From Balneolaceae bacterium (lineage in GTDB: Bacteria; Bacteroidota; Rhodothermia; Balneolales; Balneolaceae), in NCBI GenBank assembly GCA_020832415.1, contig JAFIES010000006.1:1-44707 (forward strand): a DNA stretch of 44,707 bases. Reading direction: 5' to 3'. Of the stretch, positions 5,727 through 15,120 are shown piece after piece. The notes under the pieces were generated by a model. The model saw only the letters and a list, made by a program, of their open reading frames with translations, did not search any database and was not told the DNA's origin. The position numbers and the translations under genes were made by a program. Every line of letters begins with the position of its first letter. Position 1 is the stretch's first letter.

Positions 5727-6619
5727 CTCTTTTCTAAAACTCTGAGAATTCCCGGGGTTACATCCAGAATGCTTTTCGCTTCTGAGAATGGTTCCGTATC
5801 TCCTGCTACAAAGAGAGGTACCGGATTCCGGGTATGAGTTTTTGTTGACAGATCTTCGATATTTCCGTGATCGCTGCATATCACAAGCGTATCATCCGGT
5901 TTTTTATTTTTTATGATCTGCATCAGGAAACGGTCTAACACCATCAGAACTTTATCAGCCATTTCTCTGTCCTGAGCATGGCCTGCCTTATCTGTGAGGT
6001 AATATTCATATAGAACCAGATCGTAAGCGTTCAGGGCATTCAGGGCTCTTTCTGCTGCATCCTCCGGATCGATAGATGGCACATCAAGATTAAGCATGCT
6101 CCTCCAGGCCGATTGAACAATTTCAGCGGTGATTGCTCTCTCCTCCAAAACATCCTGAAGTCTGTTCAGGCGCAGGTTCGCTGATTTAGTCATCAGTGTG
6201 GTACAGCTCCAACGATCTCTTTTTTCTGATTTTTCAAAAAAAATATCGGGATATGCATTTAGAAAATGTGCACTTTTTCCCATTTCGATAGCTTTATGAA
6301 AGACACTCTTTTTCCTGAGAAGCGGTTTAATTTTTGAGTGAGGAAACGGCCCGAAATGTTTCCCTATTTTTTTTGAAGCATTGATGCCTGTAAACAGTGA
6401 TGTTTGTCCGGTGCCGCTTTGTGGTAACCCTTCAACATCAAGATTGGCATCTGTTTTTTTAAACAAAATGCCATTTTTCTTTACTTCTTCGCACTCTATA
6501 TGTACACCCATACAGCTCGTGAAATAGGAAAATGAGTGAAGATTTTCTGAAGCTAATGGATTCAGGGTTGAATTTTCTCCAATCCCCACACCATCAATAA
6601 ATATAAAAAGCACTGACAT
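5723..6619 (-). CDS. Alkaline-phosphatase-fold metalloenzyme (phosphoglycerate mutase/phosphopentomutase-like)
   Basis: A 298-residue protein with the metal-site pattern of the alkaline phosphatase/iPGM superfamily: FIDGVGIG near residue 9 (first metal Asp), GTGQTSLFTG near 70 (Thr at the nucleophile position), DKAGHAQD near 210 and CSDHGNIED near 250, then a late His in THTRNPVP. It is shorter than true cofactor-independent phosphoglycerate mutase (about 510 residues), so the substrate is undetermined. Its ATG overlaps the dtd stop by one base (TAATG), implying translational coupling. Its stop overlaps adk on the other strand. Confidence 0.8.
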   Translation of the reverse strand: MSVLFIFIDGVGIGENSTLNPLASENLHSFSYFTSCMGVHIECEEVKKNGILFKKTDANLDVEGLPQSGTGQTSLFTGINASKKIGKHFGPFPHSKIKPLLRKKSVFHKAIEMGKSAHFLNAYPDIFFEKSEKRDRWSCTTLMTKSANLRLNRLQDVLEERAITAEIVQSAWRSMLNLDVPSIDPEDAAERALNALNAYDLVLYEYYLTDKAGHAQDREMADKVLMVLDRFLMQIIKNKKPDDTLVICSDHGNIEDLSTKTHTRNPVPLFVAGDTEPFSEAKSILDVTPGILRVLEKS

Positions 6620-7059
6620 TACTTCTCCAATATAAGGGTAACGGGCCCATCATTAACAAGTTCAACATCCATCATCGCCCCAAACTCACCGGATTCAACT
6701 TTTAAGTTATTCTCTTTCTTTAGTTTCTCAATCATATATTCGTACAAGGGTTCAGCAACTTCAGGCCGTGCTGCCTCAATAAAACTGGGCCGCGTTCCTT
6801 TTTTTGAATTCCCGTAAAGTGTGAATTGAGAAACAACCAACAATCCTCCATCAATATCTTTTACAGATCGGTTCATTTTACCATCATCATCCTCAAAAAT
6901 TCTGAGTTTTGGGATTTTTGAGCAACACCAGTCAGCTTGTTCTTTCGTGTCCGTTTCGTGAATCCCCACAAGCAGCAATAATCCTCTCTTAATTTTTCCG
7001 GATACTTCTCCATTTATGGTTACAGACGCTCTGCTTACTCGCTGAATAACTATTCTCAT
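6619..7059 (-). CDS. dtd: D-aminoacyl-tRNA deacylase
   Basis: A 146-residue DTD that hydrolyses D-amino acids from mischarged tRNA. It starts MRIVIQRVSRASVTING, the usual N-terminus. It carries SQFTLYGNSKKGTRPSF with the active-site Ser-Gln-Phe-Thr, and NDGPVTL near the end, corresponding to the cross-dimer Gly-Pro motif. An upstream in-frame start (7149) would add 30 residues unlike the family and running into the DnaA-box region, so the ATG at 7057-7059 is preferred. It forms a two-gene unit with the downstream metalloenzyme. Confidence 0.95.
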   Translation of the reverse strand: MRIVIQRVSRASVTINGEVSGKIKRGLLLLVGIHETDTKEQADWCCSKIPKLRIFEDDDGKMNRSVKDIDGGLLVVSQFTLYGNSKKGTRPSFIEAARPEVAEPLYEYMIEKLKKENNLKVESGEFGAMMDVELVNDGPVTLILEK

Positions 7060-7531
7060 ATGTGGGAAACTATGTGGATAAAGATGGTTTAAGTTGTTGG
7101 TAACAAAAATAAATCTGATTTCAGTAAATCTATCCACATTGATTAACAATTAAAACCAATTATCCACACTCAAAAAGAATAACTTTTTATGTGGACGGTT
7201 TAATTTCTATTTATAGGTGCAACTAATATGGAATGTTAATTACTAATCAATTGACTCTATAACATATTGATATTACTAAACAGGTTATTCACAAAATTAT
7301 TAACAATTACACATAAGTTATAAAGTTCATCCTGATAAAAAAGTTATACACTTCTTAACACTGTTCTACTACTATACTACAAAATTTACAATCCAATACT
7401 TTTCGTTAACTCCTGTGGATAACCCCCTTCATTTTGTCAAAATGTGAAGTCTCATTCTTTCTATATTTCAAACCGTTCGTTTTACAATACAATTTCTTAA
7501 CAGATACTTTTAACAGCAAAAGAGACATACA
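7060..7531. other. Candidate replication origin (DnaA-box cluster, AT-rich)
   Basis: This 472-bp divergent intergenic region holds four exact DnaA boxes (TTATNCACA): 7073-7081 (minus), 7160-7168 (plus), 7285-7293 (plus) and 7414-7422 (minus). Near-matches are CTATCCACA at 7130-7138 and TTATACACT at 7344-7352. Between them, 7200-7400 is very AT-rich, which would suit a DNA-unwinding element. dtd and purM point away from it. No dnaA or other replication gene lies in the window, so the origin role is inferred from box density alone. Confidence 0.65.
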
Positions 7532-8536
7532 GTGTCAGAAAAAAAAATTACATACAAAGATTCCGGTGTTGATATAAAAGCGGGAGAAGAACTGGTTAAC
7601 TCTATAAAAGATGTGGTTAAAGAGACACATAATGCAAATGTGTTAAGCAATATTGGCGGATTTGGAGGGCTCTTTTCTGCAAACTTCTCCGGCTTGAAAA
7701 ATCCTGTTCTGGTTAGCAGCGTAGATGGCGTTGGAACCAAACTGATAGTGGCATTCAAAGCAGGTGTTTATGATACCGTGGGCCAGGATCTGGTAAATCA
7801 TTGTGTGAATGATATTGCTGTTTGTGGCGCAGATCCGCTTTTCTTTCTGGACTATTTTTCAACAGGTAAACTGGAGCAAAAGACAGGGTATGATGTTATT
7901 AAAGGATTTGCCAAAGCTTGCAAAGAGAATGGTGTAGCCTTAATTGGCGGCGAAACCGCTGAAATGCCCGATATCTACAAACAGGGAGAGTTCGATCTGG
8001 CAGGAACCGTTGTTGGAGTGGTTGACCGTGACAAATTAATTACCGGTGAAAACATAAAAAAAGGTGATCTCCTTCTTGGTTTCAAAAGTACAGGACTGCA
8101 CACAAACGGATACTCACTGGCACGAAAGGTACTCTTTAGTGAATTTGATATTGATGACAGGCCCGATGAACTTGAAAACAGCGTTGGAGAGGAACTTCTG
8201 CAGGTTCATAAATCATATCTGCCATTGATAAAGAAATTGAGAGAAATAGATGGAGTAAATGGATTTTCTCATATAACCGGTGGTGGTATTGAGGGAAATA
8301 CAAAACGAATTTTACCGGATGGATGTAAACTCTCTGTTGATTGGAACAGCTGGGAACGGCCTGCAATATTCAAACTGATCCAAAAAACAGGAAATGTACC
8401 CGAAGATGATATGCAGGCAACATTTAATCTTGGAATTGGTATGATAGCTGTTGTTTCCAAAGATACTGTCAATACGGTACAAAAGTTATGTACAGAATTG
8501 GGAGAAGAATCAACAATTATTGGAAAAGTTGATTAA
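7532..8536 (+). CDS. purM: Phosphoribosylformylglycinamidine cyclo-ligase (AIR synthetase)
   Basis: A 334-residue enzyme of de novo purine synthesis that closes FGAM to AIR using ATP. Family motifs in order: YKDSGVDIKAGEELV, VSSVDGVGTKL, GQDLVNHCVNDIAVCGADPL, GGETAEMPDIY, GLHTNGYSLAR, HITGGGIEGN and NLGIGMI. The length is typical. The start is GTG at 7532, with AGAGA upstream; no ATG gives a better N-terminus. It stands alone, without other pur genes nearby, next to the candidate origin. Confidence 0.97.
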   Translation: MSEKKITYKDSGVDIKAGEELVNSIKDVVKETHNANVLSNIGGFGGLFSANFSGLKNPVLVSSVDGVGTKLIVAFKAGVYDTVGQDLVNHCVNDIAVCGADPLFFLDYFSTGKLEQKTGYDVIKGFAKACKENGVALIGGETAEMPDIYKQGEFDLAGTVVGVVDRDKLITGENIKKGDLLLGFKSTGLHTNGYSLARKVLFSEFDIDDRPDELENSVGEELLQVHKSYLPLIKKLREIDGVNGFSHITGGGIEGNTKRILPDGCKLSVDWNSWERPAIFKLIQKTGNVPEDDMQATFNLGIGMIAVVSKDTVNTVQKLCTELGEESTIIGKVD

Positions 8537-13807: not shown

Positions 13808-15120
13808 CAGTAGTGTCCAATTAAGACAATTTTAATTTCTTGTAAATCATTGTGGTACATATAAATAAGTACTGTTAAATTTTTTATCGACTTCAACTCG
13901 TAGCTTACCAGTGTCTGCGATGTTTAATTTTTGATCGATATACGTAATCATGTACACTGGCCGAATCATATTTTCACAACTTATGGATGTTATTCCTAAA
14001 TACGAATTTCGAAAAATTGTTGATCATCACAAAGGTGATTACCGTGCACAAAAATTCACGTGCCGGGATCAACTGCTTTGTATGTGCTTTGGACAACTCA
14101 CCTTTCGAGATAGTCTGCGGGATTTGACCTCCACCCTGAGTGCTCTCGGATCCCGGCGTTATCACATGGGTATTAAAACCAACGTTCCCCTGAGCACTCT
14201 CTCCTATGCCAATGCGCATCGTCCTTGGCAAATCTATCAGGATTTGGCCATGGTATTGATCGACCAAGCTCAACATCTGTATGGCAAGGATGAGATAACC
14301 GAGTCGATTAAAATCCTGGACTCTTCGACCATTGATTTGTGTCTGTCGCTGTTTCCATGGGCCGAGTTTCGACAGCAAAAGGCCGCCATCAAACTTCATA
14401 CGGTGATGGATTTGCAGGGCTCTATCCCCACTTTTATCCATATTTCCGATGGCAAGACCCATGATGTAAACATTTTGGATATGATCCCTATTTTGGCAGG
14501 CAGTATCTACATCATGGATCGGGGATACCTGGATTTCGAACGGCTGTATCACCTGCACCTTCAGGGCGGTCGCTTTGTCATTAGAGCCAAGAAAAATCTG
14601 CGGTTCTATCGAAAATCTTCCACACCCGTCGACTCCACGAGTGGCTTGCAATGTGATCAGATAATCCGCCTGACAGGGAATCAGACCAAGCATCATTACC
14701 CGGAGTCGTTGCGACGTGTTCGTTTGATTGACCAGGAGAATGATCAGAATATTGTTCTGTTGACCAACATTACCCATTGTGATGCCAGCCAGATCGCCGA
14801 CTATTACAAGAGTCGCTGGCAGATCGAATTGTTCTTCAAATGGATCAAACAAAATCTGAGAATCAAAGCATTCTATGGGCAAAGTATCAATGCCGTAAAA
14901 ACACAAATATGGACTGCCATTTGTACCTATTTGATCATGATAATATGCCATAAAACCAATCAATTTAACGTTAGTTTACACACGATGATGCAAGTATTAA
15001 GTGTAGCCATATTAGAGCGTATGACGCTTAAACAGCTATTTTCTGACAAAACACTCACACAATTAGAGACCCATAACCGTAACCAATTGGTACTCTTTGA
15101 CTAACAATTGGACACTACTG
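13808..15120 (+). mobile_element. IS4-family insertion sequence, complete
   Basis: A 1313-bp element bounded by perfect 15-bp terminal inverted repeats, CAGTAGTGTCCAATT (13808-13822) and AATTGGACACTACTG (15106-15120). It carries one intact transposase gene and is flanked by the 9-bp duplication TTTTCAACT. The identical ends, intact frame and exact duplication suggest a recent and possibly still active insertion. The right flank duplication ends at the base before an ATG. Confidence 0.95.
13950..15104 (+). CDS. IS4-family DDE transposase
   Basis: A 384-residue transposase. The N-terminal region (1-110, YRAQKFTCRDQLLCMCFGQL) resembles the DUF4372 DNA-binding domain. The catalytic residues are Asp124 in ILDSSTIDL, Asp190 in IMDRGYLDF and Glu293 in YYKSRWQIELFFKWIK, which gives the IS4 signature Y-(2)-R-(3)-E-(6)-K exactly. 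The length is normal and no frameshift is seen. Its stop lies 16 bases before the end of the element. Confidence 0.95.
   Translation: MYTGRIIFSQLMDVIPKYEFRKIVDHHKGDYRAQKFTCRDQLLCMCFGQLTFRDSLRDLTSTLSALGSRRYHMGIKTNVPLSTLSYANAHRPWQIYQDLAMVLIDQAQHLYGKDEITESIKILDSSTIDLCLSLFPWAEFRQQKAAIKLHTVMDLQGSIPTFIHISDGKTHDVNILDMIPILAGSIYIMDRGYLDFERLYHLHLQGGRFVIRAKKNLRFYRKSSTPVDSTSGLQCDQIIRLTGNQTKHHYPESLRRVRLIDQENDQNIVLLTNITHCDASQIADYYKSRWQIELFFKWIKQNLRIKAFYGQSINAVKTQIWTAICTYLIMIICHKTNQFNVSLHTMMQVLSVAILERMTLKQLFSDKTLTQLETHNRNQLVLFD

Follow-up and report, generated by a model that had tools for sequence, protein, structure and literature searches.

We asked whether the gap between the divergent genes dtd and purM in a member of the Balneolaceae could be the origin from which its chromosome is replicated. 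The window, i.e. the whole stretch of 44,707 nucleotides that we analyzed, is one contig (C49) in a genome of 3.94 Mb and 152 contigs from the Rhodohalobacter group; its closest named PurM relatives are Balneolaceae, including Rhodohalobacter sulfatireducens WB101. An earlier note had proposed the gap as a candidate chromosomal origin away from dnaA, pointing to four exact and two single-mismatch DnaA boxes between diverging genes.

A cluster of DnaA boxes between dtd and purM

The gap (7060-7531) is 472 bp long with a GC content of 28%. The exact box TTATNCACA is present four times, at the sites previously claimed (7073-7081 and 7414-7422 on the minus strand, 7160-7168 and 7285-7293 on the plus strand), and one-mismatch boxes are present too, but they number three and not two (7130, 7297 and 7344, all on the plus strand). 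The flanking genes diverge as described (dtd, 6619-7059, minus strand; purM, 7532-8536, plus strand; matches to TIGR00256 and TIGR00878), and dnaA is indeed absent from the window, sitting on another contig (G000:C121).

Chance would yield far fewer exact boxes than four: the mean was 0.06 in dinucleotide shuffles of the gap, and 0 of 5000 shuffles reached four. Boxes with at most one mismatch number seven compared to a mean of 1.23 (0 of 1000 shuffles of the gap), and when the whole window was shuffled 300 times, the largest 350-bp cluster contained two boxes. The 3.94-Mb genome as a whole contains 199 copies of the exact box compared to 80 of the reversed pattern. Single boxes are therefore common and clusters alone are informative, and the gap holds an above-chance cluster in an intergenic region, a feature of bacterial chromosomal origins. 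The elements of the locus are the following.

6619-7059, minus strand: dtd, D-aminoacyl-tRNA deacylase (TIGR00256), the gene that the array stays with (G064, G052)
7060-7531, no strand: predicted oriC, intergenic between divergent dtd and purM, with a box array, a conserved layout and, in relatives, the skew minimum at or near it
7061-7069, minus strand: degenerate DnaA box TTTCCCACA, 12 bp from the box at 7073; many relatives have a one-mismatch box here (alignment)
7073-7081, minus strand: exact DnaA box TTATCCACA of the distal sub-array; offset 13 kept in most genus members
7095-7103, minus strand: degenerate DnaA box TTACCAACA; many relatives match better
7130-7138, plus strand: DnaA box CTATCCACA, one mismatch; conserved offset 70
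7160-7168, plus strand: exact DnaA box TTATCCACA; conserved offset 100
7170-7189, no strand: conserved AT-rich stretch that is not a box (alignment of 47 sequences)
7190-7198, minus strand: degenerate DnaA box CCGTCCACA; a one-mismatch box in several relatives
7234-7242, minus strand: degenerate DnaA box TAATTAACA; many relatives have an exact or one-mismatch box here, at offset 174-181
7285-7293, plus strand: exact DnaA box TTATTCACA; conserved offset 225
7297-7305, plus strand: DnaA box TTATTAACA, one mismatch, 12 bp from the box at 7285
7344-7352, plus strand: DnaA box TTATACACT, one mismatch, first of a tandem pair beside the predicted unwinding site; consensus gTTaTcCACaT
7352-7360, plus strand: second tandem box TTCTTAACA, overlapping the first by one base; TnTCCACA in relatives
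7366-7374, minus strand: DnaA-trio tract, CTACTACTA on the plus strand, i.e. 3'-GATGATGAT-5' on the bottom strand (motif comparison)
7375-7409, no strand: AT-rich tract, predicted DNA unwinding element (sequence and conserved AT-rich columns; unwinding inferred)
7414-7422, minus strand: exact DnaA box TTATCCACA in inverted orientation, which closes the predicted unwinding region; among the best conserved stretches
7532-8536, plus strand: purM, phosphoribosylformylglycinamidine cyclo-ligase (TIGR00878)

Both base composition and the alignment place an AT-rich element, the predicted unwinding element, next to the boxes. Two conserved stretches inside the predicted origin (7170-7189 and 7259-7273) are not boxes and may be sites for an initiation regulator. 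A DDE transposase gene (PF01609 with DUF4372) lies at 13950-15104, ∼6 kb from the predicted origin.

The array is conserved across Balneolales

Is the box pattern kept in relatives, as the earlier note had suggested checking? In 28 of the 30 best PurM loci, the window's own counted, dtd is followed by purM with boxes between them. In the two exceptions (G064 and G052) purM lies elsewhere without boxes and the array was found beside dtd. Counted from the dtd start, the offsets 13-, 70+, 100+, 130-, 174-, 225+, 237+, 284+, 292+ and 354- (the sign giving the strand) recur within the genus, and the same offsets, moved by a few bases, are seen in Balneola, Gracilimonas, Fodinibius and other families of the order. 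The pattern is thus conserved across the order Balneolales: an array lies beside dtd in nearly every genome of the order that we examined, in several families, with positions and orientations kept within a few bases, a conservation of layout that characterizes bacterial chromosomal origins. At 44 loci of the genome collection, from which the trio counts below also come (the alignment comprises 47 sequences), boxes with at most one mismatch reached a density of 21.8 per kb within the 400 bp nearest to dtd compared to 1.15 per kb in the rest.

Two genomes from other families of the order deviate: in G193 no array was found beside dtd, and in G173 the array is shifted; the standard array is absent from both dtd loci. 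Outside Balneolales, none of nine members of the class had such an array upstream of dtd, nor did purM have one upstream in Ignavibacteria, Calditrichota, Neomarinimicrobiota and others; one genome outside the order (G098) has two boxes directly upstream of dnaA. In several relatives (e.g. Balneola and Gracilimonas; L134, L139, L142, L145, L150) an ORF of ∼170-190 codons lies between the array and purM; judged by eye, it may encode a DinB-type protein.

A DnaA-box/DnaA-trio module on the purM side

The purM side of the array is organized as a module: the tandem boxes (7344, 7352) are followed by a 5-bp spacer, CTACTACTA (7366-7374), the AT-rich tract and the inverted box (7414). In the alignment of 47 sequences the consensus of this side reads gTTaTcCACaTnTCCACA, 4-5 bases, CTACTACTA, an A/T-rich stretch and TGTGGA(A/T)AA. 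CTACTACTA is present in 17 of the 44 arrays, always on the same strand, compared to one copy on either strand in 346 kb of flanks, and CTACTA is present in 30 of the 44. The distance from the box end to the trio tract is 4 bp in 33 arrays and 5 bp in 3 (36 of 44). In the whole genome of one relative (G003) the box-spacer-CTAYTA signature occurs once, at 955,645, which is inside the dtd-purM gap. The window's own boxes beside the trios are weak (TTATACACT and TTCTTAACA); those of relatives are often stronger. In families of the order outside Balneolaceae the trio tract is degenerate, and the CTAYTA form of the signature is absent in G112.

Such an arrangement of DnaA box, spacer and DnaA-trio supports DnaA-driven unwinding in B. 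subtilis (PMC6669920), and a DnaA-box/DnaA-trio arrangement has been predicted in most bacterial origins (PMC8287927). The basal unwinding system consists of boxes, a spacer of ≤16 bp and ≥3 trios with a central A (PMC8287927); in the window, the 7344/7352 boxes together with the bottom-strand trios at 7366-7374 have this composition.

In four relatives, GC skew turns at or near the array and not at dnaA

Another check that the earlier note had named was the position of the GC-skew minimum. Skew was read from 20-kb samples along four relatives (four genera, two families) and not along the window's own genome, and in all four the minimum lies at or near the dtd-purM gap. In G003 (a single contig of 3.49 Mb) each of the 12 samples between 0 and 950 kb was negative and the samples between 960 and 1245 kb were positive, with the gap at 955.3-956.3 kb and the skew maximum near 2.7-2.8 Mb. 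On contig 1 of G065, skew was negative up to 892 kb and positive from 896 kb, and the gap is at 893.9-895.2 kb. In these two relatives the flip is located within 4-10 kb of the array. In G112 (another family, 4.29 Mb) the signal was noisy: between 0 and 268 kb most samples were negative and a single one, at 130 kb, was clearly positive, the sampled minimum was at 268 kb and the gap at 269.7-270.2 kb, and to the right of the array skew stayed near zero for ∼70 kb before it finally became clearly positive. In G041 the flip was gradual, with the minimum at 280-298 kb and the gap near 320 kb, i.e. 20-40 kb to its right. With the conserved boxes, these data support the earlier proposal of an origin away from dnaA.

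The array is not a dnaA-adjacent origin: besides dnaA being on another contig in the window's genome, in relatives it is 150-450 kb from the gap (∼346 kb in G003, 361 kb in G065, 150 kb in G042 and G044, 270 kb in G112 and 450 kb in G041). Could the origin nevertheless be at dnaA, with the dtd-purM cluster as a secondary site? The prmC-dnaA gap (G000:C121; L042:10543-10810) has three boxes on the same strand, and a cluster of two or three of them is kept in eleven relatives among the family members examined. However, there was no skew flip at dnaA in G003, G065, G041 or G112: skew was negative on both sides of dnaA both in G112, whose record starts there, and in G041, where dnaA is at 3.62 Mb. 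Moreover, no consistent DnaA-trio signature was found in the prmC-dnaA gap, and its conserved boxes all have one orientation, which fits autoregulation. As skew does not flip there in these four relatives, we rejected an origin at dnaA, to which we give almost no credence; the prmC-dnaA boxes probably serve dnaA autoregulation.

Other box clusters and the regulatory alternative

A possible alternative explanation is that the dtd-purM cluster is a DnaA reservoir or a regulatory site, datA- or DARS-like or a DnaA-controlled dtd or purM promoter, and that the real origin is elsewhere. Clusters that are not origins do exist in the window's own genome, both upstream of dnaA and upstream of a vitamin B12-dependent ribonucleotide reductase gene. 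The latter (C8:31914-32105; L041:9415-9606) comprises four exact TTATCCACA boxes within 192 bp. We rejected it as a rival origin, given its place upstream of the reductase gene; it is probably a DnaA-controlled promoter acting in the control of dNTP supply. Groups of two or three boxes on C51 and C52 were likewise rejected as origins; they lie beside a cation-type ATPase gene and partly in coding sequence before a gene for a large outer-membrane-type protein, as judged by eye from ORF listings.

Against a purely regulatory role, the skew minima of four genomes lie at or near the dtd-purM site, a position that would not suit a datA/DARS-type, non-origin cluster. In addition, the dtd-purM cluster alone among the clusters examined has the conserved tandem-box/trio module, and 2.4 Mb sampled from four relatives contained no 400-bp stretch with ≥5 boxes outside the array. 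The array also stays beside dtd when purM is gone, indicating that regulation of purM is not its explanation. We therefore consider the regulatory alternative very unlikely. With a probability of ∼95%, we read the dtd-purM gap from these sequence comparisons as a chromosomal replication origin (oriC) that is DnaA-dependent and remote from dnaA.

A model of initiation

How would such an origin work? By analogy with B. subtilis, from which we infer DnaA binding, filament growth, unwinding and helicase loading, DnaA encoded hundreds of kilobases away would bind a fixed array of ∼10 strong and weak boxes. The distal (7061-7198) and middle (7234-7305) groups would gather DnaA, and the tandem pair at 7344/7352 would steer a DnaA-ATP filament onto the bottom-strand DnaA-trios (7366-7374). 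The AT-rich tract may then be opened as far as the inverted box at 7414 (7366-7412), and helicase would be loaded at the opened tract, so that two forks leave and replication is bidirectional. A more far-reaching idea is that the order has a distinct architecture of its own, in which ∼10 fixed boxes and the box-trio module are combined with non-box stretches (7170-7189 and ∼7259-7273) that bind a lineage-specific initiation regulator, at an origin beside dtd and not dnaA; we hold this to be rather doubtful.

In the literature searched, with DoriC and most subscription papers outside its scope, we found no description of an oriC for Balneola, Balneolaceae or Rhodohalobacter. The location and layout of the Balneolales origin thus appear to be undescribed in the literature we reached; the kind of origin is already known (PMC10225481). 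The present reading would locate the origin in an order whose members are mostly halophilic and for which none is described as far as that literature shows. The host is a salt-loving bacterium with what would be an ordinary kind of bacterial origin, the same layout being kept throughout the order save at the deviating loci of G193 and G173. The placement would correct the habit of starting Balneolales chromosomes at dnaA, as is done in the G112 record, whose skew minimum lies 270 kb away. It would also serve as an anchor both for ori/ter-based estimates of growth rate in metagenomes and for plasmids that replicate autonomously, and add a box/trio origin that is clear, can be aligned and lies far from dnaA.

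Comparison with known origins

The array resembles the incC/oriC region of B. subtilis (boxes #6/#7 and DnaA-trios) in its TTATCCACA-type boxes, tandem pair and short spacer, in the repeated 3'-GAT-5' trios on one strand, in the AT-rich tract and in the additional boxes lying distally. Unlike that region, the array, a predicted origin, is located between dtd and purM and not at dnaA, and has an inverted box after the AT tract. The E. coli oriC also lies apart from dnaA and has strong and weak boxes, whose spacing and orientation are fixed, with an AT-rich unwinding element; the dtd-purM array shares these features, its unwinding element being a predicted one. In contrast to the E. coli oriC, the window's array has other neighbours and in relatives is 150-450 kb from dnaA. 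Of the two systems, the trio-type module is the clearer match for the array between dtd and purM.
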